From positions 1 through 64,000 of the forward strand of contig NZ_POTW01000004.1 of NCBI RefSeq assembly GCF_003236295.1: a stretch of 64,000 nt of DNA, written 5' to 3'. The stretch's first letter is position 1. Each line of letters begins with the position of its first letter. Below, in pieces: positions 13,302 through 54,253 of this stretch. The notes beneath the pieces are model-generated. The model searched no databases and had not been told where the DNA came from. It saw only the letters and a list, made by a program, of their open reading frames with translations. Source of the stretch: Jiangella anatolica. Its GTDB lineage: Bacteria; Actinomycetota; Actinomycetes; Jiangellales; Jiangellaceae. The translations under genes were made by a program, and so were the position numbers.

Positions 13302-14369
13302 CTACCCTCGATCACTGTTGACTCGGGCGGCGCGTGCGGTGTCCGCGAAGTCGACGGTGGCGGTGACGGTGTGCTCGAACCGTTCCCATTGCTCGTCGGT
13401 GAGATCGAGGCCGATCTCGGTGGGGTCGTAATGGGTCCACCAGCCGTCGAGGTCGTTCCAGGTCAGGAGGAAGGCTCGAAGTCCATAGCGGGCCGGCGCC
13501 GGCTGGGCTCCCCGTTCGGCCGCGGGCCGTCGGGGCCGGCGCCTACTCGACTGCTGGTTGCGGACCCGGTCGAGAGCGTCCTCCGCCAGGCGACGTAGTT
13601 CGTCGGCGCGGTGGTCATCGGCGTGGTCCCGGATTCGGACGGCTTCGCGGGCGGCGTCCTGACGCACCGCGGCCGGCTGCTCGGGATCGCCAGCGAGGCC
13701 GTCGAGCCCGGACAGCGCGGCCAGGGACCGAACCCGTTCGTAAGCGGGGTTGACCGGAGCGCCGTCCTCGATCTGTTTGAGTTCGGCACGGGCAGCGTCA
13801 CGGATGGCCGGCTCGGCGTCGAGGTCTTCGGCGAGCTCGCGCAGGGTGTTGATCTGTTCGAGCTTCGTGTACGAGCGGTGTCCGGTGACCATGCGAGCGG
13901 CTTGGGCCCGGCTGTCACCAGCCCCGGTGAGCGGTGCCGCCGATTCGGCGGCACCGTCTGAGCTGGCCTGTTGTCCACCGATGGTGAACCGCGTCGCGTG
14001 CTGGCGGCGCACGGCGTCTTCGGCGACAAGCTGTTTGAGCTCGCGGTAGAGCGACGCCGCCTCCATCGGTGAGAGTGGCTTGTGTTGGGTGTTCTCGTCT
14101 TGCTCAGCCATTAGCCGCGTCAGCTGATCGGAGATGCCACTGCGCACCCACACCGGGGTCGTGTGCCAGCCGAGCCGTTTCATCGCCGCTAGGCGGCGCC
14201 GCCCACACACCAGCACGCTGTCCGGCGTGACGGTAGGCGGCTGCACCAGCCCGATCCGCTCGATGGAGGCAGCGAGGGCGTCGATGTCACCGAGATCGGT
14301 CCGGTGCCGGTGCCCGATCACGATGGAGTCGATGGCCCGATCCAGCTCGATGTGCCCGCGGCTACCCAC
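13302..14369 (-). CDS. ParB/Spo0J-like N-terminal domain protein
   Basis: About 355 residues. Residues 10-100 form a ParB-like nuclease/CTPase N-domain: DLGDIDALAASIERIGLVQPPTV, VCGRRRLAAMKRLG, MAEQDENTQHKPLSPMEAA. This is followed by a helix-rich DNA-binding middle and an acidic C-terminal block. The GTG at 14369 is chosen because AGGAGG sits five bases before it, whereas the GTG at 14375 would abut that site. The gene overlaps the upstream gene by eight bases. It probably acts in maintenance or regulation of the element; it is leftward, last in the ardC-like operon. Confidence 0.8.
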   Translation of the reverse strand: MGSRGHIELDRAIDSIVIGHRHRTDLGDIDALAASIERIGLVQPPTVTPDSVLVCGRRRLAAMKRLGWHTTPVWVRSGISDQLTRLMAEQDENTQHKPLSPMEAASLYRELKQLVAEDAVRRQHATRFTIGGQQASSDGAAESAAPLTGAGDSRAQAARMVTGHRSYTKLEQINTLRELAEDLDAEPAIRDAARAELKQIEDGAPVNPAYERVRSLAALSGLDGLAGDPEQPAAVRQDAAREAVRIRDHADDHRADELRRLAEDALDRVRNQQSSRRRPRRPAAERGAQPAPARYGLRAFLLTWNDLDGWWTHYDPTEIGLDLTDEQWERFEHTVTATVDFADTARAARVNSDRG

Positions 14370-15225
14370 CGGCACCTCCTCGATGCTGACGCCCGGGCGC
14401 GCTCAAGCTCACCGCCAGCACCAGATCGTCGTCGGCCAGCAGCTCGGTCAGGGAGTGGCCGATCAGCAGCCGAACGAGGATCCCACGGCCGGCGGCTGTG
14501 AGGGCATGGTGCGGTTGCGGGGTGCCGAGGACGACCCGCAGCATCGCCGTCCACGAATCTTGCTCGATGTCCAGCAACGCGCGCGCCTGACTGTCGCGGC
14601 GCAGCGCCTCGTAGGCGGCAACGCGGGAGCCGGCGTCGGCCAGACGGGAGCAGATGTAGTCCACGCCGGTGCGGGCGACCGGCTCGGGCCAGCCGAGCAA
14701 GGTGAACAGCCGGACCGCGGCGTCGACGGCGGCCTTCACCTGCGACGCCGTGCTTGGCTCCGTGTCCTTCGCGACGATGTCCTCGGGCTGGACCTGGAAG
14801 GCGGGGTGCCAATCGAGGAGCGAGGTCTCCCGGTCGGACAGGCGCGTCGCCCGGTGGAACCCGGCATAGCGGCGACGCCGCGCCTGGTGCGGCGAGCACA
14901 GCATGCCCGCAGCCTTCTCCTCCGCGCCAAGCGTGATCTGCACGGCACGGGTGATGACCGCCCACGGGTCGTCGGCGTGGCGGGCTGCTCGAGTGCGCAT
15001 CGCCTCGAATGCCGCGGCGGCAGCATCCCAGGGACCGAGGTCGTGCTTGCGCGCCAAGGCGGCGTAGCGCTGCGCAACGTGCTCCATCAAGGCGTCGGCC
15101 TCGCGGTCGCGCCGCCACGCGCCGGGTCCAGCGTCGTGCAGTCGCTGCAGCAGCGACCGCAGATGCTCGGAATCGTCGAAACGACTCCTGGGGTCGTGCG
15201 GCTCGCTGGCGTGGTTACGGGTCAT
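14362..15225 (-). CDS. Hypothetical protein of the ardC/ParB operon
   Basis: A 287-residue soluble, helical, Arg/Ala-rich protein. Visible blocks are a DPWAVITRAVQITLGAEEKA segment, HQARRRRYAGFHRATRLSDRE and a C-terminal LVRLLIGHSLTELLADDDL. I recall similar unannotated proteins next to ParB-like genes in actinobacterial elements but know no function. ATG 15225 was chosen over ATG 15243 because the upstream residues look non-coding. Confidence 0.6.
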   Translation of the reverse strand: MTRNHASEPHDPRSRFDDSEHLRSLLQRLHDAGPGAWRRDREADALMEHVAQRYAALARKHDLGPWDAAAAAFEAMRTRAARHADDPWAVITRAVQITLGAEEKAAGMLCSPHQARRRRYAGFHRATRLSDRETSLLDWHPAFQVQPEDIVAKDTEPSTASQVKAAVDAAVRLFTLLGWPEPVARTGVDYICSRLADAGSRVAAYEALRRDSQARALLDIEQDSWTAMLRVVLGTPQPHHALTAAGRGILVRLLIGHSLTELLADDDLVLAVSLSAPGRQHRGGAGG

Positions 15226-36669: not shown

Positions 36670-37074
36670 ATGCAGGTGGCCGAGATGCTGCAGACGTACC
36701 CCAAGGATCTTGGCGGCGTGGACCGGCAGGCGCTCACGACATGCATCGAGCAGTGCTTCGCGTGTGCCCAAACCTGTACGGCGTGCGCTGACGCCTGTTT
36801 GAGCGAAGACATGGTCGCTGAGCTGGTGAAGTGCATCCGCACGAACCTGGATTGCGCCGATATTTGTGAGACGACCGGCCGCGTGTTGTCACGGCACACC
36901 GGTTACGACGCCAACCTCACGCGCGCGTTCTTGGAGGCGTGCGCGACGGCGTGCGCGTCATGCGCCGACGAGTGCGACCGCCACGCGGAGATGCACGAGC
37001 ACTGCCGGGTCTGCGCGGAGGCGTGCCGCGCCTGTGAGCGCGCCTGCCGCGACCTGGTCGGGTCGCTGGGCTAG
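36670..37074 (+). CDS. DUF326 four-helix Cys-rich copper-binding protein
   Basis: A 134-residue protein with 18 cysteines in C-x2-C/C-x3-C pairs along four helices (CIEQCFACAQTCTACADAC, CADIC, CATACASCADECDRHAEMHEHCRVC). This is the pattern of DUF326/Csp-type copper storage proteins, which fill a helical bundle with Cu(I). ATG 36670 follows GGAAGGAGACCACC. It is monocistronic with a strong terminator and lies in the metal island. Confidence 0.9.
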   Translation: MQVAEMLQTYPKDLGGVDRQALTTCIEQCFACAQTCTACADACLSEDMVAELVKCIRTNLDCADICETTGRVLSRHTGYDANLTRAFLEACATACASCADECDRHAEMHEHCRVCAEACRACERACRDLVGSLG

Positions 37075-38889: not shown

Positions 38890-39216
38890 ATGGTCAACGC
38901 GCAGCTCGACCGGGCGGCCGATGAGCAGGCCGGCTCGCATGGCTATATCCACCACAAGGACGACTACCTAAAGCGGCTGAGTCGCATCGAGGGTCAGGCT
39001 CGTGGCCTGCAACGGATGGTCGACGAGGAGAAGTACTGCATCGACATCCTGACCCAGGTATCGGCCATGACGAAGGCCCTGGAATCCGTGGCACTCGGAC
39101 TGCTCGAGGAGCACCTGGCCCACTGCGTCGTCGAAGCGGCGCGTGCCGGAGGTCCGGAGGCTGACGCGAAGGTCAAGGAGGCCTCCGAGGCCATCGCCCG
39201 CCTCGTGCGGTCCTGA
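38890..39216 (+). CDS. csoR: CsoR-family copper-sensing repressor
   Basis: A 108-residue protein of the metal-sensitive repressor (CsoR/RcnR) family. It has DDYLKRLSRIEGQARGLQRMVDEEKYCIDILTQV and then LEEHLAHCVVEAA. The Cys of EKYC and the His and Cys of HLAHC are the Cu(I) ligand triad. ATG 38890 follows GAAGGGAAGA. It likely releases DNA on Cu(I) binding and controls itself, copZ and the divergent MFS gene. Confidence 0.92.
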   Translation: MVNAQLDRAADEQAGSHGYIHHKDDYLKRLSRIEGQARGLQRMVDEEKYCIDILTQVSAMTKALESVALGLLEEHLAHCVVEAARAGGPEADAKVKEASEAIARLVRS

Positions 39217-39258: not shown

Positions 39259-39462
39259 ATGACCACGTCCACCTACACCGTCACCGGCATGACCTGCGGA
39301 CACTGCGTCAGCTCCGTCCGCGAGGAGGTCAGCGAAATCCCCGGCGTCACCGGCGTAGACGTCGACCTGGCCAGTGGCAGGCTGGACATCACTGCGGAGA
39401 GCTCCATCAGCGACGACGCCGTTCGGGCTGCCGTCGAGGAGGCCGGTTACCAGTTGGCGTGA
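39259..39462 (+). CDS. copZ: CopZ-like copper chaperone (HMA domain)
   Basis: A 67-residue heavy-metal-associated domain with the GMTCGHC metal loop at residues 10-16 and the VDVDLASGRLDI and VRAAVEEAGYQL strands. It delivers Cu(I) to a P-type ATPase or other partner; no copA is visible nearby. ATG 39259 follows AAGAAGGATTGAC. It is 42 bases after csoR, probably the same transcript. Confidence 0.93.
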   Translation: MTTSTYTVTGMTCGHCVSSVREEVSEIPGVTGVDVDLASGRLDITAESSISDDAVRAAVEEAGYQLA

Positions 39463-39492: not shown

Positions 39493-39536
39493 CGGCCCCG
39501 TGCCAGGCGCGGTACCCCCGCCCTGGCACGGGGCCG
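39493..39536 (+). terminator. Terminator after copZ
   Basis: CGGCCCCGTGCCAGGCG and its complement form the arms, with a central GGTACC around 39510-39516 (hairpin 39493-39536). It separates the csoR-copZ unit from the complex I-like operon. Confidence 0.8.
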
Positions 39537-39620: not shown

Positions 39621-39962
39621 ATGAGCGGGATCCTGTCTCTGCTCGGTGTCTCCTTGGCCCTGGTCGTTGGCGCGTACGCCGCCTCGAACGCGATACGTCT
39701 GGCCCGTCGTCCGGCTGCCGTCCTGCCGTTCGAGTCCGGGATGCCGCCGCAGCAGCATGCCGTCTCGCGTTACCACGTCCGGTGGTACGCCGTGACGCTG
39801 CTCTTTCTGGCCTTCGACATGGAGATGATCTTCATGTATCCGTGGGCGATCGTCGTCGCCGACATGGGCACATCGGCGGTCGTCGAGATGTTCGGGTTCC
39901 TCGCCATCCTGCTCGTCGGCGTCGCGTACCTCTGGCGCGAGGGTGCGCTGCGATGGACCTGA
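39621..39962 (+). CDS. NuoA-like subunit of a complex I-like cluster
   Basis: A 113-residue protein of the NuoA family: helix 1 (LSLLGVSLALVVGAYAA), the RPAAVLPFESGMPP loop matching the PxxxPYECG-type loop of NuoA (here FESG, without Cys), then RYHVRWYAVTLLFLAFDMEMIFMYPWAIV, the DxExxFLYPW signature. A strong GAGAGGAGGTGA site precedes it. It is the first gene of an eight-gene operon and overlaps the next gene by 10 bases. It is probably an inner-membrane structural subunit. Confidence 0.88.
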   Translation: MSGILSLLGVSLALVVGAYAASNAIRLARRPAAVLPFESGMPPQQHAVSRYHVRWYAVTLLFLAFDMEMIFMYPWAIVVADMGTSAVVEMFGFLAILLVGVAYLWREGALRWT

Positions 39963-41359
39963 GGCAGCGGCTCACGGCCTGGGCGTTGAGCAGGCCCCAC
40001 GTCCTCGTGGTGGATGATCCGGGCAGTCGCGAGCTCCGGTGGCAGGTCGAAGCTGAGCTGGATCGGCGCGGCTGGCCGGTGGCCGGCTCGCCGGCCGACG
40101 CGGACCTGCTGCTCGTGCTAGGCGAGCTCGGCCCGCGACTGGCCGCGGCCGCCGAGGTGCTGTGGTCTCAGGTCCCAGCACCTCGGCATCGGCAGGACCT
40201 GCACGATGGTCACGAACTCGGAGCGCAGCTCGACGCAGCCTTGACGTCCCTGCTCGAGAGGTCAGACGACGCGCCTCGGAGTGATCCGCAGACCCTGCTG
40301 ATCGGCGAAACGCCGACCGCCCCGCACGATCCCGGCCACCAGGGTGGACACCTGGACCACGGTCACGACGGCGGCCACGACCACCACGCTGCCGATGAAC
40401 CAGCAGAACCCGTGAGCGACCCGGCCATGAGCCACGACGATCATGACGCGCATGGTGGTCACGCGGAACAGATGAGTCCGGAGGCCCACGCCGGCCATGA
40501 GGACAGCGAGCATGCAGCTCACCCCATTCATGACGCCGAGCTCTCCGCGGATGCGCACGAAAGCCACGGTGCTCACGGTGACCACGAGCACGCCGACCAT
40601 CAGGCACCCGCCGGGAACGCTCATGGCGAGAACGGCGGACATCAGGAGCACGCGGGACACGACGCCCACGACGACCAGGCCGGCCATGACCAGCACGCGG
40701 CCCACGGCGGACACGGTGACCATCACATGCACCATGGCGGTGAGATCGCCGGCTTGGCGATGGCGAGCACCGCACCGGACCGCGACGGGTTGGAGCTGGA
40801 CGCGCTTCGCGTGTCACTCGGACCGGTGTTGCCGGGGTGGCCGACCGGCCTCGTGCTGACCGGGTCGTTGCAGGGCGACGTCCTCACCGGTGTCGAGGTG
40901 TCCTGGCTGGATCAGCCGGCCGCAGGCCCGAGCCAGGTGCCGGCGAGCGTGGCAGCCCTGGATTCGCTGGCGCGCTTCTTGGTCGTGGCGGGCTGGCCGG
41001 TTGCGGCACGCCGGGCCCGCGCCGCCCGCGACGCCTTGATGGCGGCCGACGAGGCGACCGTGCAGCGGGGACGCGACGCTGCAACGCCCCTGGCACGGAT
41101 GGTTCGTCGTTCGCGGACGCTGCGGTGGTCCGTCCGGGGCATCGGCGCCACCGGCGACGGCGACGTGCTCGACCGTGCCTATCGCTGGTGCGACGCGGCC
41201 GCCGGCGCGCACACCCACACCAGCCCCAACGCGGTGGGGCTGCACGACCTCGCCGCGCTCGTGGACGGGCAGGAACTGGCGGCGGTCCGGCTGATCGTCG
41301 CCAGCTTCGACATCGAGGCGGCGCCGGCGCCCGCGCACCACGGGATGTCCCATGCCTGA
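39953..41359 (+). CDS. His-rich NuoB-like/NuoD-like fusion without Fe-S ligands
   Basis: A 468-residue protein in the place of nuoB-nuoC-nuoD. Residues 1-105 resemble NuoB or a hydrogenase small subunit in fold order (GWPVAGSPADADLLLVLGEL followed by LWSQVPAPRHRQDL). They lack every cluster Cys; the whole protein has one Cys. Residues about 124-264 are a His/Asp/Gly-rich segment with about 36 histidines (runs such as HDHH, HGDHHMHH), a metal-binding look. Residues 270-468 start VSLGPVLPGWPTGLVL and end GQELAAVRLIVASFD, recalling NuoD. The relation to NuoB/D is inferred; no catalytic residue remains. Confidence 0.6.
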   Translation: MDLRQRLTAWALSRPHVLVVDDPGSRELRWQVEAELDRRGWPVAGSPADADLLLVLGELGPRLAAAAEVLWSQVPAPRHRQDLHDGHELGAQLDAALTSLLERSDDAPRSDPQTLLIGETPTAPHDPGHQGGHLDHGHDGGHDHHAADEPAEPVSDPAMSHDDHDAHGGHAEQMSPEAHAGHEDSEHAAHPIHDAELSADAHESHGAHGDHEHADHQAPAGNAHGENGGHQEHAGHDAHDDQAGHDQHAAHGGHGDHHMHHGGEIAGLAMASTAPDRDGLELDALRVSLGPVLPGWPTGLVLTGSLQGDVLTGVEVSWLDQPAAGPSQVPASVAALDSLARFLVVAGWPVAARRARAARDALMAADEATVQRGRDAATPLARMVRRSRTLRWSVRGIGATGDGDVLDRAYRWCDAAAGAHTHTSPNAVGLHDLAALVDGQELAAVRLIVASFDIEAAPAPAHHGMSHA

Positions 41360-42314
41360 CATGACCACGCCCGAGACGGTCGCGACGTCGGTGGCGGCGT
41401 GGGGGTTGCTCCCCGCCGTGGCCCTCGTCGTCGCGGTCGCTTTGGCGCTGGGCCTGGTGTTCGCCGCGCTGGACCGGGTCGTCGTCGCCGGTGGTGACGC
41501 CAATGCGATGGCCGGCCCGTCCCGGACGGTGGTGCGCTGGCTGGTGAAGCAGCGCCGCACGACGTTGGCTCCAGACCGTTTGCTGTGGCGGGTGGCTACC
41601 GGGGCGGTGCCGGTGCTGGCGGTGCTGTCGATGGCGGTGGTGCCGATCGCGGGCCGGACGCTGTGGTCGACGAGCGCGGACCTGGTCTGGTTCAACGCGA
41701 TGGAGGCGCTGCTGTGGGCGGCGGTGTGGCTGGTCGGCTGGGGTCCGAACGCGGTGCACGCGCTGGTGGGCGGGTACCGGTTCCTGGCCCAGGGCCTGGC
41801 GTACGAGCTGCCGTTGATGTTTGCGCTGATCACTGCCGGGCTGGCTGCGGGGTCGCTGCGGACCACTGACGTGGTGGCCGCGCAGGCTGATTTGTGGTTC
41901 GTCGTGACGATGCCGGTCGCGTTCGTGGTGTTCCTGGCCAGTGCGGCGGCGTTCGCGTTCTGGGGTCCGTTCGCCGCACCGGCCGGCGCCGACATCGCCG
42001 GCGGTGTGGTGTCGGAGCTGTCGGGTGTGGAGCGGCTGCTGGTGGAGGCCGGGCGGGCGATCTTCCTCGGCGCGTCCGCGGCGATGGGCGCGACGCTGTT
42101 CCTGGGTGGCGGGTCCGGGCCGTGGCTGCCCGACGCGCTGTGGCACCTGCTGAAGACCGTGCTGCTCATGGGCCTGATGGTGGTGGCGGGGCGCCGGGTC
42201 CCGGTGCTGCGGCCGGACCGCTACGTCGAGGCCGCGTGGGTCGTTCTCGTACCCGTGACGCTGCTGCAGGCCCTGGTGGTAGCGGTGCTGGTGCTGAGCG
42301 GGATGTACGCGTGA
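41352..42314 (+). CDS. NuoH-like subunit
   Basis: A 320-residue, eight-helix protein of the NuoH (quinone-chamber) family. Family-like blocks are GGYRFLAQGLAYELPLMFALI (the AQMISYE region), GPFAAPAGADIAGGVVSELSGVERLLVEAGR (the ELVAGYxTEYSG region, divergent) and LPDALWHLLKTVLLMG. Several acidic residues of the canonical quinone loop are absent. ATG 41352 overlaps the preceding gene by eight bases. Confidence 0.85.
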   Translation: MPDMTTPETVATSVAAWGLLPAVALVVAVALALGLVFAALDRVVVAGGDANAMAGPSRTVVRWLVKQRRTTLAPDRLLWRVATGAVPVLAVLSMAVVPIAGRTLWSTSADLVWFNAMEALLWAAVWLVGWGPNAVHALVGGYRFLAQGLAYELPLMFALITAGLAAGSLRTTDVVAAQADLWFVVTMPVAFVVFLASAAAFAFWGPFAAPAGADIAGGVVSELSGVERLLVEAGRAIFLGASAAMGATLFLGGGSGPWLPDALWHLLKTVLLMGLMVVAGRRVPVLRPDRYVEAAWVVLVPVTLLQALVVAVLVLSGMYA

Positions 42315-42333: not shown

Positions 42334-42897
42334 ATGGCGGGCGATATCGCGGTGGTGACATTGGGAATGTTGGCGGTCGCGGCCGGGATCGCGGTGTTCG
42401 TCGTCGATTCGATGGCCCGGGCGACGTTCGCCTTGCTGGCGTCCTTCCTCGCCGTCGCCGGGATCCTGCTGGCGCTCGACCTGGTCTACTTGGCCGTCGT
42501 CACCGCGCTGATGATGACGATGGAAATGGCCGTGATGGCCATTTTCATGATCATGTTCATGATGAACCCGGCCGGCCTGATGCCGATGACCATGGTCCAC
42601 AACGCCCGCGGCTCCGCCGTCGCCGGCGCGAGCGTGTTCACGGTTCTGACCGTCGGGATCTGGACCATCGACTGGCCGGCCCGACAAGGCACTCAGCCCG
42701 ACGACGCCACCCGCCAGCTCGGCGAGTCGATCATGGGCGGGCACATGCTCGTGATGCTGGTCATCGGCATCGGACTGTTCGCCACCATCATCGCCGGCAC
42801 CGTGCTGGCCACCCAGCGCGGCCGCTACGACCGCTTCGGCCCAGAGCTGGACGCCCGCCGGCCACACGATCCCGTCGCCGGAGGGCTGCCGCGATGA
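42334..42897 (+). CDS. NuoJ-like subunit, Met-rich
   Basis: A 187-residue protein with five hydrophobic helices, matching NuoJ in size and position. Helix 3 and the following loop are unusually methionine-rich (TALMMTMEMAVMAIFMIMF, then MMNPAGLMPMTM), where NuoJ normally has LVYVGAVAVLF. ATG 42334 follows GAGGTGCAGCC and the next gene overlaps by ATGA. The Met clustering might bind Cu(I), a speculation that fits the neighbourhood. Confidence 0.82.
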   Translation: MAGDIAVVTLGMLAVAAGIAVFVVDSMARATFALLASFLAVAGILLALDLVYLAVVTALMMTMEMAVMAIFMIMFMMNPAGLMPMTMVHNARGSAVAGASVFTVLTVGIWTIDWPARQGTQPDDATRQLGESIMGGHMLVMLVIGIGLFATIIAGTVLATQRGRYDRFGPELDARRPHDPVAGGLPR

Positions 42898-43199
42898 CCC
42901 TGCAGATCGTGCTCACCGTGGCCGCCGCTCTGATCGGCGTGGGCCTGTTCGGTACGCTGTCTCAGCAGTCGATCGTGATGGTGATGATGGGCCTGGAGCT
43001 CGTCGTCAACGGCGTGCTGCTGGCGGGTGGGGCGGCGTGGTACTTCCTGACCCCGTCGGCGCCGGACGCGCAGATGCTCATCGTCGTCGCGCTGGTGGTC
43101 ATGGCCGTGGAGATGGTGATGGGCTTCGCAGCGACGATCGCGATCTACCGCGCCCGGCAGGTCGACATGGTGGACATGGCCAAGGACCTGCGCGGATGA
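42894..43199 (+). CDS. NuoK-like subunit
   Basis: A 101-residue, three-helix protein of the NuoK family. It retains the two membrane Glu residues of the proton path: MMGLELVVNGVLL (helix 2) and VVMAVEMVMGFAATIAIYR (helix 3). ATG 42894 and the stop both overlap neighbouring genes by four bases. Confidence 0.88.
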   Translation: MTLQIVLTVAAALIGVGLFGTLSQQSIVMVMMGLELVVNGVLLAGGAAWYFLTPSAPDAQMLIVVALVVMAVEMVMGFAATIAIYRARQVDMVDMAKDLRG

Positions 43200-45046
43200 C
43201 CCCCGCGGCCGCGCTGGCGGGGCTCGTGCTGGTCCCTGCCGTAGTCGGCGTGTTGCTTCTGCTGGCCGGACGGCGGGCCGACCGCCTGGCCGGGCCGGTC
43301 GCCGTCGTCGCCGGTGTGGTCGGCGTCGCGCTGGCGGCGATCACGGCCGTGGAGCGGCCCGACGTGTCGGCGCCGTTCCTCGGCATCGTCGACGGCGGCG
43401 ACCTCGCCCTGGCCGTCGACGGGCTGTCCGCGGTCCTCGTGGTGACGGTGACGGCGGTATCGATCGCGGTGATCGTGTTCGCCGTCGTCGACCTGCCGCG
43501 CGACGCCGCCCGGGCGCGGTTCTTCGGCTACCTGCTGCTGTTCGTCGCCGCGATGCTGCTCACCGTCACCGCAACGACACTGCCGACGCTGCTGCTGGCA
43601 TGGGAGGTGATGGGCGCGACCTCGTACGCGCTCATCGGCTACCGCTGGGACGTGCCCGGCAAGCTGTCGGCCGGGACGACGGCGTTCGTGACGACTCGCG
43701 CCGGCGACCTGGGCCTGTACGTCGCTGCCGGTGCGGCGCTGGCGGGGACGGACTCGCTCGAGCTGGCCGACCTAGCTACGGCGGACGGCGGCTGGCAGCA
43801 CGTGGCGGCCGCCGGGATCCTGGCCGCGGCTCTGGGCAAGTCCGCGCAGCTGCCGTTCTCGGCGTGGCTGTCTGCGGCGATGCAGGGCCCGAGCCCGGTG
43901 AGCGCGCTGCTGCATTCGGCCACGATGGTGGCCGCCGGCGGGTATCTGCTGGTGCGCACCATGCCGCTGCTGGAGGCGTCCGGGTGGGCGGCCACGACGG
44001 CGGCGTGGGTCGGTGCGCTGACGGCGCTGGTGCTCGGTGCGATCGCCTGTGCTCAAACGGACCTCAAGCAGCTGCTCGCGGCCAGCACCGCCGCTCAGAT
44101 CGGTTTCGTGGTGCTCGCGGCCGGTGTCGGGGCGAGCGCCGGGGGAGCGGCCCACCTCATCACGCACGCCGCGGTCAAGGCCGGGTTGTTCGTCGCGGCC
44201 GGGGCATGGCTGACGTCGCTGGGCACGAAACAGCTCGCTGATCTGCGTGGCGTGGCGCGGCGGCACCGGGGCATGGGCGTGGCGGCGACGGTGGCGTTCA
44301 TGGCGCTGGCCGGGGTCCCGCCGCTGGCGCTGTGGGTGTCGAAGGACGAGGTGCTTGCCGGCGCGGACGGGGCGGTCTGGGTTGTTGGGCTGGCCGCCGC
44401 GGCGGTGTCCGCCGTCTACGCCGGCCGGGTCCTCGTCGTCGTGCTCGCCAGGCCGGATGGCACCGAGGCCCGTGATGTCGAGGAACCGGGCACCCGGCAC
44501 GTACCGGCGTCGGCCAGCGTGGTCGCCGGCGTCCTCGCCGTCGCGGCAGTCGGCCTGGGCGTGCTGGCGGTGCCGGAGGTCGCTCACGCGTTCGAGGACG
44601 TCCTGGATGTCGGTTCGCAACCCACGCCGTCCGCGGCCGAGCTCGCACTGTCCGGTGGGCTGGCCGTCGCCGTGCTGGCGCTGACCGTGCTGCGGCCCGG
44701 CCTCGTCAACCGGCTGAGCGGCAGCGTCCTCCTTCCGTGGGCGGGGCTGTCCCGGCTGCTGTCGCCGCAGCCGGTGCTGGCGGTCGCCCGCGCCGCCGCG
44801 GCGATCGACGACCGCGTCATCGACCGGGCCGTGCTGGCCATCGCGGCCGGAGTACGCCGCGCCGCGACGGCGATCGGGCGGGCCGATGACGATGGCGTCG
44901 ACGGAGCGGTCCGTTCCGTGGCGGCAGCGACCCGACGCGCGGGAGCCGCCGCGCGGCGCCCGCAGACCGGGCTGCTGCACCAGTACTACGCCCAAGCCGT
45001 CGCCGGACTCGGTGTCCTGCTCGTCCTGCTCCTCGTCGTGAGGTAA
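43196..45046 (+). CDS. NuoL-like proton-pumping subunit
   Basis: A 616-residue antiporter-like subunit. The pumping residues are present: Glu in LAWEVMGATSYALIGYR, Lys in GKSAQLPFSAWLSAAMQGPSPVSALLHSATMV and Lys in HAAVKAGLFV. The C-terminal part is shortened and Arg-rich, and the long lateral helix is unclear. It ends with one more helix (YAQAVAGLGVLLVLLLVV). ATG 43196 overlaps nuoK. Confidence 0.9.
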   Translation: MTPAAALAGLVLVPAVVGVLLLLAGRRADRLAGPVAVVAGVVGVALAAITAVERPDVSAPFLGIVDGGDLALAVDGLSAVLVVTVTAVSIAVIVFAVVDLPRDAARARFFGYLLLFVAAMLLTVTATTLPTLLLAWEVMGATSYALIGYRWDVPGKLSAGTTAFVTTRAGDLGLYVAAGAALAGTDSLELADLATADGGWQHVAAAGILAAALGKSAQLPFSAWLSAAMQGPSPVSALLHSATMVAAGGYLLVRTMPLLEASGWAATTAAWVGALTALVLGAIACAQTDLKQLLAASTAAQIGFVVLAAGVGASAGGAAHLITHAAVKAGLFVAAGAWLTSLGTKQLADLRGVARRHRGMGVAATVAFMALAGVPPLALWVSKDEVLAGADGAVWVVGLAAAAVSAVYAGRVLVVVLARPDGTEARDVEEPGTRHVPASASVVAGVLAVAAVGLGVLAVPEVAHAFEDVLDVGSQPTPSAAELALSGGLAVAVLALTVLRPGLVNRLSGSVLLPWAGLSRLLSPQPVLAVARAAAAIDDRVIDRAVLAIAAGVRRAATAIGRADDDGVDGAVRSVAAATRRAGAAARRPQTGLLHQYYAQAVAGLGVLLVLLLVVR

Positions 45047-45049
45047 TCC

Positions 45050-46555
45050 GTGCTGCTGACCGTCGTCGTCCTCCTGCCGCTCGCCGTGGCGGTCGTGCTG
45101 ATGGCGTTGCCGCGAATCCCGGACCGGGTGGCGTCGTGGGCGTGGGTAGCCGCGTCCGCCGTCGACCTCGCCCTGGTGGCGTGGATGTGGTGGCGCTTCG
45201 ACCCTGGCGCGGGGATCGCGTTCGACGTCAAGGTCCGCTGGATCCCCACCGTGGACGCGAGCTACCACGTCGGCGTCGACGGCCTGTCGTTGCCGCTGAT
45301 CGCGATGACCACCGTGCTGTTCCTCGCCTGCGCCGTGTGGTCGCTGCGTGAGCAACATCGGCCCCGCGCCCACGCCGCGCTGTTCCTGTTCCTGCAGACG
45401 GCGTGTCTGGGCACGTTCGCAGCGCTCGACCTCATTCTGTTCTTCGTCTTCTTCGACCTCACGATTGTCGGGATGTACTTCGTCATCGCCGGATGGGGGC
45501 ACGGCAACCGTCGCCGCAGCGCGCTGAAGTTCTTCCTCTACACCTTCGTCGGGTCGCTGGCGCTGCTGGTCGGCTTCATCGGGCTGTTCCTCGGGTCCGA
45601 CGAGCGCACCTTCGACATGGTGCGGCTCGCGGACAACCCGCCACTGCAGGGCGCACCGGTCGCGGGCGGGCTGGTGCTGCTGGCCATCGGGATCGGGCTG
45701 GGCGTCAAGACACCGGTCTTCCCGTTCCATACCTGGCTGCCCGACGCGCACACCGATGCCCCGGCCGCCGGGTCGGCCATCCTGGCCGGGGTGCTACTCA
45801 AGCTCGGCACCTACGGGTTCGTCCGCATCGCGATGCCGATGCTGCCCGAGGCGTGGCGGGACTGGGCGATGGTGATCGTGGTGGTCGGCGTCGTGAGCGT
45901 CGTGTGGGGCGCGTTCGTCGCGCTGGCGCAGCAGGACTTCAAACGCATGGTCGCCTACACGTCGGTCAACCACATGGGCTACATCCTGCTCGGCCTCGGC
46001 GCTGCGGGGCTGGTGGGACCGGCCGACGACGACGCCCGCACCATTGCCACCGTCGGTGCCGTGGTCCAGATGGTCAGCCACGGTCTCCTCACCGGTGCGC
46101 TGTTCCTGCTGTCGGGCGTGCTGTGGTCGCGCGGCGGCACCTACGCGTTCGACCGCTGGGGCGGGCTGGCCCGGCCGGCGCCGGTCTTCGCCGCGTGCCT
46201 GGCGGTCGCCGCGTTCGGGTCGCTTGGACTGCCGGGACTGTCGGCGTTCATCGCCGAGTTCCAGATCTTCACCGGCGCGCTGCAGGCCACCCCGGTCGCC
46301 ACGGTCATCGCCGTCACCGGCATCCTCGTCACCGCCGGGCTGTTCCTGCTCGCCCTGCAGCGGCTGCTCGCCGGGCCGACGACGGCGCCGGCCTCCGCCG
46401 CGAATCCGGGCGGGCTCGTTGACGTGAACCGGCGTGAGGTCATTGCGATCGTGCCGCTGCTCGCGCTGTCTCTGGTGATCGGCCTGTTGCCCCGGGTGCT
46501 GCTCGACGTGGTGGAGCCGGCCGCCGAGCTCGTCACGGACCTGGTCGCCCGATGA
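45050..46555 (+). CDS. NuoM-like proton-pumping subunit
   Basis: A 501-residue protein with about 14 helices. It has GVKTPVFPFHTWLPDAHTDAPAAGS (Lys and His), LLKLGTYGFVRI and DFKRMVAYTSVNHMGYILLG, all NuoM hallmarks. In the Glu144 region it reads FFDLTIVGMYFVIAGWG, with Asp where NuoM has Glu. GTG 45050 lies four bases after nuoL. Confidence 0.9.
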   Translation: MLLTVVVLLPLAVAVVLMALPRIPDRVASWAWVAASAVDLALVAWMWWRFDPGAGIAFDVKVRWIPTVDASYHVGVDGLSLPLIAMTTVLFLACAVWSLREQHRPRAHAALFLFLQTACLGTFAALDLILFFVFFDLTIVGMYFVIAGWGHGNRRRSALKFFLYTFVGSLALLVGFIGLFLGSDERTFDMVRLADNPPLQGAPVAGGLVLLAIGIGLGVKTPVFPFHTWLPDAHTDAPAAGSAILAGVLLKLGTYGFVRIAMPMLPEAWRDWAMVIVVVGVVSVVWGAFVALAQQDFKRMVAYTSVNHMGYILLGLGAAGLVGPADDDARTIATVGAVVQMVSHGLLTGALFLLSGVLWSRGGTYAFDRWGGLARPAPVFAACLAVAAFGSLGLPGLSAFIAEFQIFTGALQATPVATVIAVTGILVTAGLFLLALQRLLAGPTTAPASAANPGGLVDVNRREVIAIVPLLALSLVIGLLPRVLLDVVEPAAELVTDLVAR

Positions 46556-47970
46556 ACGAGATGGGCGGGGGAGGCGAGGAGGTCGTCGCGCTGCTACCGG
46601 AGCTGCTGCTCCTGGCCGGCGCCGTCCTTGGGCTCCTCGTCGGTTTGTGGACGCCGCAGCGACGGCAGGTCCGCGTCGGCGTGTTGGCCGTGCTGTTCTG
46701 CCTGGCCAGCGCGGTCGCGGCGGCCGTCGCGCTGACCGAGCCGGACGAGACAGTGTTCGACGGCACCTGGGTCATCGACACCACCACCGGCGTGGTCCGC
46801 ATCGCGGTGGCGATTTCCACCGCCGTCGCGGTCGTGCTGTGCTCGTCGGCGTTCGCCGGGCACGCGCGCGAGACCGAGGTCTACGTGCTGATGATGCTCG
46901 GCTCCATCGGCGCCATCGCGCTCGCCGCCAGCGGTGACCTGCTCATGCTGGTGGCCGGGTATCTGCTGGCCAGTGTGCCGTTGTATGCGCTCGTCGGGTT
47001 CGTGAAGGACGCCCGCGGGGTCGAGGCCACCCTGAAGTACTACCTCATGGGCGCGTTCGTGGGCGTACTGATGCTGGTCGGTGTCGCCGCGCTCATCCTC
47101 GCCGGCGGCGCCAGTGGCTACGAGGAGCTGGCTTCAGCACTGCCGAACGCGTCGGTGGCGCTGGTAGCCGTCGGCGTGCTCGGTGTCCTCGCCGGCGTGG
47201 GGTTCAAGGCGGGCGCCGTCCCCGTCCACTTCTGGATCCCCGACGTCGCCGCCGGCACCGCGCCGGCCGTCGCCGCCTTCATCACCACCGTGCCGAAGAT
47301 CGGCGCCGTCGCGGCCGCGTTCCGGCTGCTCGCCGAACCGTTCGCCGACGCCCCGGTCGACGCGCCGCTGCTGGTCGCCATCATCGCCGCCGCCAGCATG
47401 ACGCTGGGCAACCTGGCCGCGTTCGCCCAGACCGAGCTGCTGCGCCTGCTGGCCTACTCCACCATCAGCCAGGTCGGCTACCTGTTCATGGTCGTGGCGG
47501 TGGCGGCGCGCACAGACCTCGCCGAGCCCGCGCTGGTCATCTACCTCACTGGCTACGCGATCACGAACTTGGGTGCGTTCGCCGCCGTCGCCGCCCTCCC
47601 CGGGGTGAGCACCATCGCGGACTGGGCGGCCGCGGCCCGAGAGCGCCGCTGGCTGGTGGTCAGCCTTGTCGTGTGCCTGCTCGGACTCGTGGGCACGCCG
47701 CCCACCGCTGTCTTCGTGGGCAAGCTCGCCGTCTTCATCGCTACCGCCGACGGCGCCATGGCCTGGCTCGTCGTGGTCGCCGCGGTCAACACCGTCGCCA
47801 GCCTCTTCTACTACCTGCGCTGGGTCGCCCCCGCGGCTGAGACCACGTCGTCGACTGGACCGGTCACGACCGTGATGCGCGTGCCACTGGTGACTGTGCA
47901 CGCCGCCGCCGTCGGATCCTTGTTGCTGGGCCTCGGCGCCGGCGCATGGCTGACCTTCACGGCTGGCTGA
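46552..47970 (+). CDS. NuoN-like proton-pumping subunit
   Basis: A 472-residue protein. VGFKAGAVPVHFWIPDVAAGTAPAVAAFITTVPKIGA keeps both conserved lysines. The helix usually reading LGLELLSLPLYAL is LMLVAGYLLASVPLYAL, without the Glu. ATG 46552 overlaps nuoM (ATGA). It is the last subunit gene of the cluster; nuoC, E, F, G and I are absent. Confidence 0.9.
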   Translation: MNEMGGGGEEVVALLPELLLLAGAVLGLLVGLWTPQRRQVRVGVLAVLFCLASAVAAAVALTEPDETVFDGTWVIDTTTGVVRIAVAISTAVAVVLCSSAFAGHARETEVYVLMMLGSIGAIALAASGDLLMLVAGYLLASVPLYALVGFVKDARGVEATLKYYLMGAFVGVLMLVGVAALILAGGASGYEELASALPNASVALVAVGVLGVLAGVGFKAGAVPVHFWIPDVAAGTAPAVAAFITTVPKIGAVAAAFRLLAEPFADAPVDAPLLVAIIAAASMTLGNLAAFAQTELLRLLAYSTISQVGYLFMVVAVAARTDLAEPALVIYLTGYAITNLGAFAAVAALPGVSTIADWAAAARERRWLVVSLVVCLLGLVGTPPTAVFVGKLAVFIATADGAMAWLVVVAAVNTVASLFYYLRWVAPAAETTSSTGPVTTVMRVPLVTVHAAAVGSLLLGLGAGAWLTFTAG

Positions 47971-47974
47971 GCAC

Positions 47975-48460
47975 ATGACGGATCGGCGCACCAAATGGCC
48001 GCATCGGCGACTAGTCTGGATAGACGTGAGGATCGGGCGGTTCGCAGCGCGCGTGGCGGCTGTGGCTGTGCTTGTCTTCGGCATCGTCGTGATGCATCAC
48101 ATCGCGCAGTCCGGCCATGACGGGTCAGCTGCTCCCGAGGCGCCAACCCTGGCTTCCGGCGTTGGCGAAGCCGCCGGACACGCCATGAGTGCGAGCGGCC
48201 CGCAGCTCTCCGACGACGCTGCAGCGGGTACCGCAGCAGGCGATGGCGCGATGTCTGCCGGCCACGTGATGCTGCACCTCTGCCTGGCTGTGCTGACGGC
48301 AGCCGCGGTCGTGCTCGTCGGCTGGCTTCTCCTTACTCTCCGGCCCTGGGCAGTTGCGTCACCCCTCGTGCTCTTCCGCGTTCGGCCGCTGCCCGCCCGA
48401 CCACCGCCCAGACCCCACGGATCAGCGCTCCTGATGTCCCTGTGCGTGATGCGGACGTGA
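47975..48460 (+). CDS. DUF6153-family membrane protein
   Basis: About 161 residues (144 if GTG 48026 is used, just after a TAGTCT -10 at 48012-48017, giving a leaderless start). One helix (VAAVAVLVFGIVVMHHIAQ), a Ser/Ala-rich His-containing loop, a second helix (LHLCLAVLTAAAVVLVGWLL) and a Pro/Arg tail ending LCVMRT fit DUF6153. Proteins of this family accompany copper-resistance genes in actinomycetes; the role is unknown. It follows nuoN by four bases. Confidence 0.7.
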   Translation: MTDRRTKWPHRRLVWIDVRIGRFAARVAAVAVLVFGIVVMHHIAQSGHDGSAAPEAPTLASGVGEAAGHAMSASGPQLSDDAAAGTAAGDGAMSAGHVMLHLCLAVLTAAAVVLVGWLLLTLRPWAVASPLVLFRVRPLPARPPPRPHGSALLMSLCVMRT

Positions 48461-48522
48461 CAGGTCAGTTCACCTGACCTGCACGTTCGTATGCCCACGC
48501 ACTCCTTGAAAGGGACAGTTTG

Positions 48523-49131
48523 ATGTACCGAAAGCGCTTCACCCTGCCCGCCCTCGTGGCGACGGTCGGACTGCTGCTCGCCGGCTGTGGCGACGACGGC
48601 TCGAACGATGCCGGCGCCGGGACGGCTACCGAGACGAGCGCCACCGAGGCGGAGTCCAACGACGCCGACGTCGAGTTCTCCCAAGGGATGATCCCGCACC
48701 ACGAACAGGCCGTCGAGATGGCCCAGATGGTGCCCGACGAGGGCGTCAGCCCTGAGCTCATCGAGCTCGCAGACGCTATCGAGGGTGCACAACAGCCTGA
48801 GATCGACCAGATGACGGCAATGCTCGAGCGATGGGGCGAGGACGCCCCGTCCGACGACCCGCACGGCGGCCACGGCTCGGGCGACATGGAGATGGGCGGC
48901 ACGATGTCCGCCGAGGATATGGATGCCCTCGCTGCCTCCTCCGGGGCTGAGTTCGAGGAGATGTTCCTGACCATGATGATCGAGCACCACGAGGGTGCCA
49001 TCACCATGGCCGAGACCGAGCTGGCCGAGGGCCAGGACTCGGAAGCACTCGAGCTCGCTCAGACGATCATCGATGCCCAGCAGGCCGAGATCACGCAGAT
49101 GGAGCAGATGCTCCAGGCCACGGGTTCCTGA
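48523..49131 (+). CDS. DUF305 lipoprotein
   Basis: A 202-residue secreted lipoprotein: lipobox LLLAGC at residues 17-22, then a DUF305 helical domain with two FSQGMIPHHEQAVEMAQM/FLTMMIEHHEGAITMAE Met/His blocks, a candidate copper site. DUF305 proteins are linked to copper and metal tolerance. ATG 48523 follows TTGAAAGGGACAG. A hairpin terminator ends the gene. Confidence 0.9.
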   Translation: MYRKRFTLPALVATVGLLLAGCGDDGSNDAGAGTATETSATEAESNDADVEFSQGMIPHHEQAVEMAQMVPDEGVSPELIELADAIEGAQQPEIDQMTAMLERWGEDAPSDDPHGGHGSGDMEMGGTMSAEDMDALAASSGAEFEEMFLTMMIEHHEGAITMAETELAEGQDSEALELAQTIIDAQQAEITQMEQMLQATGS

Positions 49132-50682: not shown

Positions 50683-51224
50683 CCCAGCACGTGGACCTCG
50701 TCATGGTCAGAACGGTCCCATCGGATCGCTTCGCTTGCGTGAGCGGTGGGGGACTCCGCGGTCCTGGCCCTGGGCGGGCGAAGAGGTGTGTGGGCAGCCC
50801 GATACGGCCGCCAGGATGCCGTTGCAAGCCCGCTGGCCAGCCCGGCCAAGCCCGCCTGAGCTAGAGCTGGTACTGCTCGACGATCACGAGCTGACCGCTC
50901 CCGGCGGTTGCCCATGTTTTGGGTGCCCCCGGCAGGAGATGACTCTGCACCAGCGGAACCTCCTGTCTGCAGTGTGACCTGCGGCGTTATCGATTTACGG
51001 GGTTCGTTCGAGCATCGTGGCTGGCGCTCTGGCTCGATGCGTGCCGAGTCGCTCTCCGGGACTTCCTGAGTCCGCGGTTGCGGCTGGTCACACGGCGCTG
51101 TGGTGGGGATCACCGGCTAGAGGTTCGCCTCGACCGGTTACTCTGGTGGTAGGCGATGAGGCCCGCCTGAACTGCCATGGTGGCTGATGGCTTCTACCCG
51201 TTTGAACGAACGGTTGGAGGCGCC
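50683..51224. other. Intergenic region, no gene seen
   Basis: About 540 bases between a leftward small gene and the MutS-like operon. An open frame on the minus strand (50679-51113) is Arg/Ser-rich and judged non-coding. The promoter of the MutS-like operon should lie here, but no clear elements were identified. Confidence 0.35.
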
Positions 51225-52751
51225 ATGGCGATGGTGTGCAGTGTGCTGTTCCGACGGCCGCGTGCTAGTGCCCGCCGGGATGAGCCGGTGATCTTCGGCG
51301 ACCTGAACCTTGATCAGGTAGTGGCGGCGGTCGCGGCTGGACGTGACGAGTACGACCTGCGGCCATTCTTCCATGAGCCGCTTCGGGATGTCGACGCCGT
51401 GGAGTATCGACATCGGGTTGTCCAGGACCTCGAGCGTGATGATGTGCGGTCGGTGGTGGATGAGTTCGCTGCATTGATGCAGCGCGTGCGCAGACATCTG
51501 CGGGCAGTGCAGGAGCGCAGTAGTGGGTACGAGCGGCAGCGCTACTTCCTCGACGCCGCGGACCTCTATTGCCAGGCCGTCACCGCCCTGTGGAGTGCAC
51601 TCGCCCGGGTGGAGCTCGCGTCGGAGGGTTTGGCTGGCCTCCGGGAACATCTGGCCGGATATCTCGGCTCTGGCGCCATCCAGGCGTTGGCCCGCGATGC
51701 CGGTGACATGCTGGACGAGTTGGCGGCGGTTCGGTACTGCGTGCATGTCCGCGGTGCGAAGGTGACGGTCAGCCGCTACGAGGGTCAGGCCGACTACACG
51801 CCGGAGATCGTGAAGACGTTCGCGAGGTTCAGGCAGGGCGAGGTGGCGGACTATCGGGTGAGGCTCCGCTACTACCAGGACATCAACCACGTCGAGGAGT
51901 GGATCCTGGAGCGGGTGGCGCGGCTGTTCCCGGAGACGTTCACCGCGCTGGCGGACTTCTGCCGGCTCCATGTGGGGTTCGTCGACGAGACCGTGACCAC
52001 CTTCGACCGCGAGGTGCAGTTCTACCTGGCGTATCTGACGTATATGCGTCGGTTCACCGATGCGGGGTTGTCGTTCTGCTGTCCGGAGGTCTCGGCGACG
52101 TCGAAGCGGCTGCGGGTGAGCGGCGCGTTCGATCTGGCGTTGGCGACCAAGCTGGCCGGGTCCGGATCGGAGGTGGTGTGCAACGACATCGACCTGTCCG
52201 ATGCGGAGCGGGTTGTCGTAGTCACCGGCCCGAATCAGGGCGGCAAGACGACGTTCGCCCGGATGTTCGGGCAGCTCCACTATCTGGCCGCGCTCGGCCT
52301 GCCCGTTCCGGCCCGTTCGGCTCGGTTGTTCCTCCCGGATCGGGTGTTCACGCATTTCGAGCGGGAGGAGAGCCTGGACACGCTGCACGGCAAGCTGGAG
52401 GACGAGCTGGTGCGCATCCACGACGTCCTGGACCACGCGACCGGCGACAGCGTCATCGTGATGAACGAGACCTTCACCTCGACCACGCTGCAGGACGCGC
52501 TCGTCCTCGGCACTCAGATCCTGAGCCGGATCGTCGATCGGGACTGCCTGGCGGTGTATGTGACGTTCGTCGACGAGCTGTCATTGCTGAGCGAAGCCAC
52601 GGTGAGCATGGTCGGCATGGTCGTGCCCGATGATCCGGCGCGGCGGACGTTCGAGGTGGTGCGCCGTGCCGCGGACGGCCGCGCGTACGCGATGGCGCTG
52701 GCGGAGAAGTACGGCCTGACCTACGAGGCGTTGCGGAGGCGAGTGGGATGA
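51225..52751 (+). CDS. MutS-like ATPase, first of a tandem pair
   Basis: A 508-residue protein. The C-terminal ATPase has Walker A TGPNQGGKTTFARM at about residue 340 and a Walker B-like IVMNETFTSTTLQDAL (Asn in place of the usual Asp). The N-terminal 300 residues form a helical core like MutS domains III/IV. The mismatch-binding domain I is missing. ATG 51225 follows GGAGG with a six-base spacing. It overlaps the next gene by ATGA. It is probably a dimer partner of the second ATPase; a DNA-repair role is not implied. Confidence 0.85.
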   Translation: MAMVCSVLFRRPRASARRDEPVIFGDLNLDQVVAAVAAGRDEYDLRPFFHEPLRDVDAVEYRHRVVQDLERDDVRSVVDEFAALMQRVRRHLRAVQERSSGYERQRYFLDAADLYCQAVTALWSALARVELASEGLAGLREHLAGYLGSGAIQALARDAGDMLDELAAVRYCVHVRGAKVTVSRYEGQADYTPEIVKTFARFRQGEVADYRVRLRYYQDINHVEEWILERVARLFPETFTALADFCRLHVGFVDETVTTFDREVQFYLAYLTYMRRFTDAGLSFCCPEVSATSKRLRVSGAFDLALATKLAGSGSEVVCNDIDLSDAERVVVVTGPNQGGKTTFARMFGQLHYLAALGLPVPARSARLFLPDRVFTHFEREESLDTLHGKLEDELVRIHDVLDHATGDSVIVMNETFTSTTLQDALVLGTQILSRIVDRDCLAVYVTFVDELSLLSEATVSMVGMVVPDDPARRTFEVVRRAADGRAYAMALAEKYGLTYEALRRRVG

Positions 52752-54253
52752 AGGTGTTCCTGCTGCACCCTGATCGAGAGGTCGAAGCGCAGGAGCCGCC
52801 GCCGCAGGCGGATGCCCTCGTCGCCGATCTGGATGTGGACACGCTGATCGGGGCGATGGCCGGCGGCGATCGCTACCTGTGGGACGTCGCGAAGCAGACG
52901 CTGCTGGCCAGCCTCACCGGCCCCGACACGATCACCTACCGGCAGCGGGTCCTGGCCGACTGCCTTGACCACCCGGGCGTGGTGCGGAAGCTGTATGACG
53001 TCGCGGTCGAGGCGATCGAGGCCCGGCGCAAGGTCTTCTACGTCACCCGGCACGACACACCCGAACGCGTCGTCAGCCGCTCGGTGCAGATGCTCACCGC
53101 GCTGATGGGCAGCGTCCGCCGGCTCAGGGCGCTCGCCGACGATCATGCCACGGCGTTCAGGTCCGAGGGGTTCACCGGGCTGTTCGCCAGGATCGCCGAT
53201 GAGCTCGACGACGACTACCTCGCCGCAGCCGGCGAGCACCTGGCCGAGCTGGATTTCCGCCGGGGAACCCTGTTCAGCGGGGAACTCGGGCGAGGCAACC
53301 GCGGTGTTTCCTACGTGTTGCACCGGCTGCCGCGGCGGCGCTGGTTCGACGTCGTGTCCGGCCGAGGCGGTCCGCGGTACTCGTTCCAGATCCCCGACCG
53401 CGACGAGGCCGGGTTCCAGGCTTTGGGTGAGATCCGCAGCAAGGGTCTCAACGAGGCCGCCAACGCGATCGGGCAGGACGCGGACCACGTGGTGAGCTTC
53501 TTCACGGTGTTGCGCTTCGAGCTCGCGTTCTACCTGGGTTGCGTCAACCTGCGCGACCAGCTCGCCGCCCATGGGGAACCCGTGTGTTTCCCCACCCCCG
53601 TGCGCCAAGGCGAGGACGCTTTCACCACCCGCGGCCTCTACGACGTCTGCCTCGCCCTGCGCACCGATGGCGTGGTGGGCAACGACGTGGACGCCGACGG
53701 CTCGACCCTGGTCATGGTCACCGGCGCCAACCAGGGCGGGAAGTCCACCTTCCTGCGCAGCGTCGGCCTAGCGCAGCTGATGATGCAGTGCGGCCTGTTC
53801 GTCGCCGCGACCCAACTGCGAGCCACGGTCGCACAGGGCGTGTTCACGCACTTCAAACGGGAGGAAGACGCCACCATGACGCACGGGAAGTTCGACGAGG
53901 AGCTCGCCCGGATGAGCGACATCGCCGACCAGATCACCCCCGGCGCGCTGCTGCTGTGCAACGAGTCGTTCGGCTCCACGAACGAGCGGGAGGGCTCGCA
54001 GATCGCCCGCGACGTCATCGACGCCATGACCGGCAACGACATCAGGGTCGTGTTCGTCACCCACCTGTTCGACCTCGCCCACGGCCTGCACGAGCACCGG
54101 GCGCCGACGACGGTGTTCCTGCGCGCAGAACGCCGCCCGGACGAGACGCGCACGTTCCGTGTCGTCCCGGGCGAGCCGCTGCCGACCAGCTACGGCGAGG
54201 ACTCCTATCGGCGCATCTTCGGGACCGATGCGGCGACGGCTGTGAGCGCATGA
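52748..54253 (+). CDS. MutS-like ATPase, second of a tandem pair
   Basis: A 501-residue paralogue of the previous protein. Walker A is TGANQGGKSTFLRSVG at about residue 325; the Walker B-like motif is LLCNESFGSTNEREGS (Asn), followed by FVTHLFDLA (signal His). The start is rich in Pro and Glu. ATG 52748 overlaps the first gene's stop. The pair looks like an obligate heterodimer. Confidence 0.85.
   Translation: MKVFLLHPDREVEAQEPPPQADALVADLDVDTLIGAMAGGDRYLWDVAKQTLLASLTGPDTITYRQRVLADCLDHPGVVRKLYDVAVEAIEARRKVFYVTRHDTPERVVSRSVQMLTALMGSVRRLRALADDHATAFRSEGFTGLFARIADELDDDYLAAAGEHLAELDFRRGTLFSGELGRGNRGVSYVLHRLPRRRWFDVVSGRGGPRYSFQIPDRDEAGFQALGEIRSKGLNEAANAIGQDADHVVSFFTVLRFELAFYLGCVNLRDQLAAHGEPVCFPTPVRQGEDAFTTRGLYDVCLALRTDGVVGNDVDADGSTLVMVTGANQGGKSTFLRSVGLAQLMMQCGLFVAATQLRATVAQGVFTHFKREEDATMTHGKFDEELARMSDIADQITPGALLLCNESFGSTNEREGSQIARDVIDAMTGNDIRVVFVTHLFDLAHGLHEHRAPTTVFLRAERRPDETRTFRVVPGEPLPTSYGEDSYRRIFGTDAATAVSA

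Follow-up and report, generated by a model that had tools for sequence, protein, structure and literature searches.

Why should a long histidine-rich segment be lodged inside a protein whose two ends look like worn subunits of respiratory complex I, and what could such a protein do? The question arose in a 64,000-nucleotide stretch of the Jiangella anatolica genome (contig NZ_POTW01000004.1, positions 1 to 64,000), hereafter called the window. Coordinates given without a locus name are positions in it, and all features described there lie on the + strand.

Protein X and its operon

The gene, named X here, occupies 39953..41359 and codes for 468 amino acids, predicted as a degenerate NuoB domain, a His-rich linker and a degenerate NuoD domain. 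It starts with ATG and overlaps the end of nuoA by 10 nt. Since its flanks and its gene position recur in about 50 loci, the frame is coding and did not arise by chance. The initial annotation had pointed to a His/Asp/Gly segment at residues about 124-264 and to one Cys in the whole protein, and both were borne out. The linker, delimited by composition (residues 124-264, 141 aa; 40322..40744), holds 36 of the 46 His of X, which make up 26% of its residues, together with 19 Asp, 22 Gly, 12 Glu, 3 Met and zero Cys, Lys or Arg; the sole Cys of X is C413. A Pfam search with the window X gave no match at all, HMBD (PF19335, the CPMHP...CGM domain) included, and its AlphaFold2 prediction, with a pLDDT of 47, was not taken into fold searches.

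The flanks had been read as relics of NuoB and NuoD, and profile comparison agrees with this. Alignment A1, a profile of the N-terminal domain (39953..40297 in the window) from 32 X homologues, picked out NuoB/PSST chains in the PDB (4.9e-8); every match below 0.01 was of the NuoB, PSST, MbhJ or HycG type. TIGR01957 was matched at E 0.1 or better by 28 of the 32 members, and hhalign against NuoB gave P 95.5 and a score of 54.0, the maximum of 60 column shuffles being 19.6. The C-terminal domain (40754..41356), recognised by motif and hhalign, carries the motif DRDGLxLDxLxxxLGPxLPxWPxGLVLxxxLQGDV. Its link to NuoD was weak in a first hhalign comparison (E 0.0068) and emerged clearly only when a broader NuoD set and deep-branching X proteins were compared, a nine-member X subset then reaching P 95.5 and E 1.4e-8, both E-values being those of single comparisons. 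Against the broad NuoD set the domain was colinear over 214 columns, with P 86 and a score of 49.1 where shuffles reached at most 15.9; a PDB search with X alignment A2 returned nothing significant for NuoD. PF00346 was matched above its curated cut-off by the X proteins of Rubrobacter (4.1e-17) and Halomonas (2.7e-7), and among the 16 deep-branching X proteins the NuoD HMM was matched by 10 (2e-5 to 2e-17) and the NuoB HMM by 13. On the strength of these profile and HMM matches, X is best described, at the level of sequence, as a NuoB-insert-NuoD fusion.

X is the second gene of an operon, nuoA-X-H-J-K-L-M-N, whose seven membrane subunits all have Pfam or NCBIfam matches: nuoA (39621..39962, Oxidored_q4 7.8e-29), nuoH (41352..42314, NADHdh 1.3e-37), nuoJ (42334..42897, Oxidored_q3 4.7e-12) and, assigned by domain match and conservation, nuoK (42894..43199) and the antiporter-like nuoL (43196..45046), nuoM (45050..46555) and nuoN (46552..47970). 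The operon lies directly 3' of two copper genes. One codes for a csoR/ricR-like copper-sensing repressor (38890..39216, Pfam Trns_repr_metal 2e-29); its frame is open from 38794, the Met start at 38890 is preferred, and it matches the NCBIfam RicR model at 2.9e-42 from residue 49 of the longer frame, with a score under the model cut-off. The other codes for a copZ-like copper chaperone with an HMA domain and an MTCGHC motif (39259..39462, Pfam HMA 1.1e-15), matching CopZ models down to 1.4e-17, under their cut-offs. The interval between copZ and nuoA contains a perfect 15-nt inverted repeat, CGGCCCCGTGCCAGG (39493..39536), possibly an attenuator, terminator or operator.

Around these genes the order is DUF326, MFS, csoR, copZ, the eight-gene operon, DUF6153 and DUF305. 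The DUF326 protein (36670..37074, by domain match; 18 Cys in 134 aa), about 2 kb upstream in the same island, is one that we take from its family to be a Csp-type (Csp3-like) cytosolic copper storage protein. The first gene 3' of nuoN codes for a DUF6153-like protein (47975..48460, 2.4e-4, below the gathering score), and a DUF6153 gene likewise stands 3' of nuoN on a Pseudonocardia plasmid. The DUF305 protein (48520..49131, Pfam 3.7e-49) belongs to a family found repeatedly beside such clusters. CopA was found neither in the window nor in the next 36 kb or so. A RicR-type operator pattern matched the window 40 times against 44 expected, not above chance, and a sigma-70 promoter scan found none. 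A phage origin was considered and rejected, with no match. Further on, two tandem genes with a MutS domain V occupy 51177-54250.

Residues lost, kept and gained

The eight contiguous genes thus keep homologues of complex I subunits NuoA, H, J, K, L, M and N in order, X deriving from NuoB and NuoD, but NuoC, E, F, G and I of complex I have no counterpart in the cluster; a single canonical complex I, with the full set, is encoded on another contig of the genome. The redox ligands have disappeared too, as the initial annotation had stated for catalytic residues. The NuoB-like domain of the window X is without the Cys ligands of cluster N2 (alignment A1, hhalign), the quinone-site His of the NuoD motif GPQHPSTHG is lost, X reading GPVLPGWPTG, and the quinone/E-channel motif of NuoH, ETNRxPFDLPExExEL, is replaced. 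No other electron carrier was found among the operon genes.

Most channel residues are retained. Over about 32 loci, 90-100% conservation was found for E137, K215, H240, K328 and K383 of NuoL, for D136 (in place of Glu), K220, K251 and E403 of NuoM, for K219, K249 and K391 of NuoN, for Glu35 and Glu73 of NuoK, and for D66 and E68 of NuoA, so that the proton-channel Lys and Glu of L, M and K are as in complex I. Given this conservation and the loss of the redox ligands, the alignments indicate that the electron machinery is gone and the proton machinery largely kept. Unlike in NuoL and NuoM, the TM5 Glu of NuoN is replaced in the family, by Leu138. Coupling at the NuoN/NuoK junction must consequently differ from that of Mrp, and Leu138 could be the sign of an altered coupling step beside NuoK.

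The gain is in methionine. At NuoJ positions 27, 60, 68, 72, 76, 85, 87 and 138 (window numbering), Met was found in 41/41 copper-type sequences and 0/31 canonical ones; the copper-type set comprised 35 actinobacterial and 6 divergent NuoJ, with all eight Met in 35/35 and 6/6. Six of these (60, 68, 72, 76, 85, 87) fall within TM3 and the following loop, MMTMEMAVMAIFMIMFMMNPAGLMPMTMVH (residues 60-89, 42511..42600), which we propose as the Cu(I) path. Drift is an unlikely source of such a ladder, because Met has a single codon and the window is near 70% GC. In the same region Tyr61, the canonical pi-bulge Tyr, is Met in 39/41 copper-type sequences, and Ala64 has become Glu in 39/41 (35/35 actinobacterial and 4/6 divergent). 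NuoK has extra Met at 29, 31, 70 and 74, and NuoA has extra invariant residues His46, His52, Met69 and Met72. Compared with one canonical set, mean Met content in copper-type proteins was 7.1 vs 2.6% for NuoJ and 3.8 vs 1.7% for NuoA, and NuoL, M and N had no rise against that set. In a NuoJ tree computed without the Met columns the copper-type sequences stood apart from the canonical ones, the placement of the Rhodopseudomonas/Methylobacterium pair being unsure owing to long branches.

The metal-binding insert is more variable. A stretch of 30 residues with at least 6 His was present in 21 of the 33 aligned X proteins, that of the window among them. The repeat units visibly differ (HGE, MDHGGMDHG, MDHSTMDHSG, GMDHGSGHE, DMGGHAGH), hence it is the composition of the linker, not its sequence, that is conserved. 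The His insert of X is therefore common, not universal. In Rubrobacter, X has two HMBD domains (Pfam 8.3e-23) between its NuoB and NuoD parts, and the HMBD motif was found in X of six deep-branching loci. Rhodopseudomonas and Methylobacterium are without X and have a His/Met insert inside the TM3-TM4 loop of NuoJ; the NuoJ of Roseivivax, Acuticoccus and Halomonas has a His-rich tail, as has the NuoK of one further locus (L066), and some Streptomyces-type members have none of these inserts. The His-rich linker, the HMBD and the NuoJ or NuoK inserts seem, from their positions in the sequences, to be alternative ways to the same job. Being variable, and having counterparts that can sit on NuoJ or NuoK, the His insert is accessory, and as far as the alignments go the invariant mark of copper-type clusters is the NuoJ Met ladder instead. 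The initial annotation had taken a His segment absent from orthologous clusters as speaking against its reading. This was partly found, 12 of the 33 X proteins lying below the His threshold; the complex and its link to copper stand nonetheless.

Copper linkage and spread of the cluster

The linkage of the cluster to copper genes is strong. A copper marker was found near 10 of 26 chromosomal clusters, 10 of 16 deep-branching ones and 0 of 20 control windows, the controls coming from class-level genomes and so matching the deep-branching set less well, and one of the 16 deep-branching loci (L235) being a Rubrobacter plasmid also present in the plasmid set. The Fisher P was 0.0013 for the first set of 26 chromosomal clusters and 5.6e-5 pooled. 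Against a copper reading, 16/26 chromosomal and 6/16 deep-branching clusters had no detected copper marker within roughly 10 kb. Recurrent neighbours were CopA, CsoR, CopZ, multicopper oxidase and DUF305. On plasmids of M. avium, Pseudonocardia, Arthrobacter FB24, Curtobacterium, Roseivivax, Rubrobacter, Acuticoccus and Halomonas, the cluster lies beside CopA, CopZ, CsoR or CueR, multicopper oxidase, DUF305 or PcoAB-type genes; none of these was found near the plasmid clusters of Rhodococcus, Gordonia and Pseudarthrobacter.

The order A-X-H-J-K-L-M-N was found in nearly all loci examined, across Actinomycetota and on alpha- and gammaproteobacterial plasmids. X was matched in 26 of 394 genomes of the class, and copper-type NuoJ in 35 of 396 genomes of the phylum Actinomycetota, from 22 genera; a search of genome contigs gave one relative only. 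A distribution this scattered, with copies on plasmids, is consistent with horizontal transfer. Among the hosts are isolates from soil, from clinical material and from glaciers.

Several copies are broken or have other neighbours. In the same genus, a lone X fragment (L045, G009:C27 about 53171-53599; 70% identity, 211-aa frame) without recognisable nuo genes is probably a decaying remnant. On Pseudarthrobacter plasmid pA (L207 8204-10009), X is interrupted by an IS3 element, nuoH-N being still open, and on a plasmid of Streptomyces NBC_00080 (L039, about 13660-14640) the cluster is reduced to nuoA and a truncated X. In Halomonas KO116 (L204 16861-19133), the ergothioneine genes egtB and egtD stand directly 3' of nuoN. 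On two plasmids from different phyla the cluster is closely preceded by a gene of the potassium channel family (L206 7868-8272, L207 6088-6966).

A proposed Cu(I)/H+ transporter and its alternatives

We propose that the product of the cluster is a Cu(I)/H+ transporter serving copper detoxification, descended from complex I but free of redox parts, a reading to which we give a probability of about 0.58. The eight products would assemble into one complex. Protons would flow inward through the antiporter-like NuoL, M and N, and their charge coupling would follow NuoK, J, A and H in the manner of complex I and Mrp. Cu(I), taking the place of quinone chemistry or of the Na+ of Mrp, would be loaded close to the NuoJ/NuoK junction and would cross the membrane along the NuoJ TM3 Met ladder, with help from Met of NuoK and NuoA, the Met side chains being proposed to line one continuous path in NuoJ. 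X would cap the membrane arm at the former NuoB/NuoD site, where its linker, His-rich and in relatives also Met-rich or HMBD-bearing, would capture cytosolic metal and hand it over, probably with CopZ. In complex I the NuoB/NuoD domain and the NuoJ C-terminus face the cytosol. Export is favoured because the context is one of resistance and because the metal-capturing arms are on parts that face the cytosol in complex I. Against this reading stand the clusters with no detected copper marker, the X proteins without a His-rich stretch and the loss of the NuoN TM5 Glu, and loci bearing CopA would have two exporters.

Known systems provide partial likenesses. The Mrp Na+/H+ antiporter is, like the cluster, redox-free and of the same superfamily, and its cation path has been proposed at the NuoJ/NuoK-equivalent junction, coupled to antiporter-like subunits: the key Glu706 corresponds to NuoJ Tyr59, and MrpC (NuoK) completes the site (PMC7419157). 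That site (MrpA Glu706, MrpC His37/His40) is not matched in the cluster, where the Tyr59 equivalent of NuoJ, position 61 of the window protein, is Met in 39/41, in place of the carboxylate cation ligand of Mrp, and NuoK keeps Glu. The cluster further differs in that NuoA, NuoH and X are present, the antiporter subunits number three, and MrpB, E, F and G are absent from its eight genes. With copper export proteins of the CusB/CopA type it shares the HMBD of Rubrobacter X, His/Met-rich arms and the CsoR-CopZ context, but it has neither a P-type ATPase nor an RND fold, and its energy would be the proton-motive force, taken up by complex I subunits. From complex I it is set apart by the NuoJ Met ladder, the metal-binding inserts and an operon of its own linked to copper.

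An operon of the same gene order has a published interpretation. Penn and Jensen (2012) and later authors have viewed a partial NDH-1, nuoAHJKLMN, as a pump for protons or sodium in adaptation to the sea or to osmotic conditions. In the portions of these papers available to us, nuoA, a hypothetical protein and nuoH-N are listed among the genes for marine adaptation in Salinispora, Streptomyces and Kocuria (PMC3314556, PMC4018334, PMC6676996, PMC8622039). By gene order, not by sequence, this would be the operon described here, and the hypothetical protein would be X; those portions do not mention copper linkage, the identity of X or the Met ladder. A search of the open-access literature, with subscription papers outside it, returned nothing relevant on copper and these genes. 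The salt pump accords with the kept channel residues of L, M and N, but without an electron donor, Fe-S or quinone site the complex cannot pump from NADH. Copper genes adjoin the cluster and no consistent salt genes were seen, its hosts extend beyond the sea, strain SM254, which has the operon, came from copper-rich mine fluids (PMC6676996), and the Met ladder is left unexplained. We find this view quite improbable. A channel or antiporter moving H+ with Na+ or K+, in which Cu bound to X or NuoJ only gates transport and so protects the proton-motive force, draws on the same linkage and proton-channel data, on Mrp relatives that move Na+ or K+ and on the potassium-channel gene beside two plasmid clusters. 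It is unlikely, though less so than the salt pump, because a ladder that is invariant over NuoJ TM3 and the loop after it looks more like a path than like a sensor.

Other readings keep copper and change its role. The same machine could work inward and supply cuproenzymes; multicopper oxidase genes are nearby and transport direction is unreadable from sequence, but placement with csoR, copZ and copA resistance modules and His arms on domains expected to be cytosolic make import a poor candidate, somewhat behind the salt pump. Nearby multicopper oxidases, together with descent from a quinone enzyme, would also suit a redox device that oxidises Cu(I) or reduces Cu(II) at X, with coupling to quinone and to the pumping of protons. 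With the NuoB Cys, the NuoD His and the NuoH ETNR motif all lost and no other electron carrier in the operon, we consider this even less probable than import. Least probable is the reading that started the analysis, a flexible Zn/Ni/Cu/Co storage segment in a dead scaffold. The high His content of the linker speaks for it; an eight-gene operon strictly kept, with intact proton-channel residues and a His insert that varies where the Met ladder is fixed, speaks against it. A metal-binding segment does remain an unusual thing to find in a complex I scaffold, but X appears as a subunit of an eight-gene copper-linked membrane assembly instead of a stand-alone store. Storage of Zn, Ni or Co was discounted, since what is fixed is rich in Met and not in His; the ladder points to soft Cu(I) or Ag(I) rather than to Zn, Ni or Co.

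If the Cu(I)/H+ transporter is real, an operon cited for more than 10 years as a marine or salt adaptation would be a copper system, and many plasmid annotations of "NADH-quinone oxidoreductase" would be misleading. Some of the plasmids with the cluster come from clinical mycobacteria, which are known to face copper stress in the host. The complex would represent a new class of copper transporters, powered by the proton-motive force through complex I antiporter modules. For the complex I/Mrp superfamily we see about even chances of a further use, as a proton-driven pump for Cu(I) (or Ag(I)) that plasmids spread among two phyla or more, with the NuoJ Met ladder replacing quinone chemistry and the NuoB-NuoD fusion serving as metal-loading subunit. 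The cluster would then be a natural experiment on complex I, its NuoH-A-J-K coupling path working with a cation instead of quinone, a replacement that the Mrp structure paper argues to be possible (PMC7419157), and the long-debated coupling mechanism would become testable by a change of substrate.
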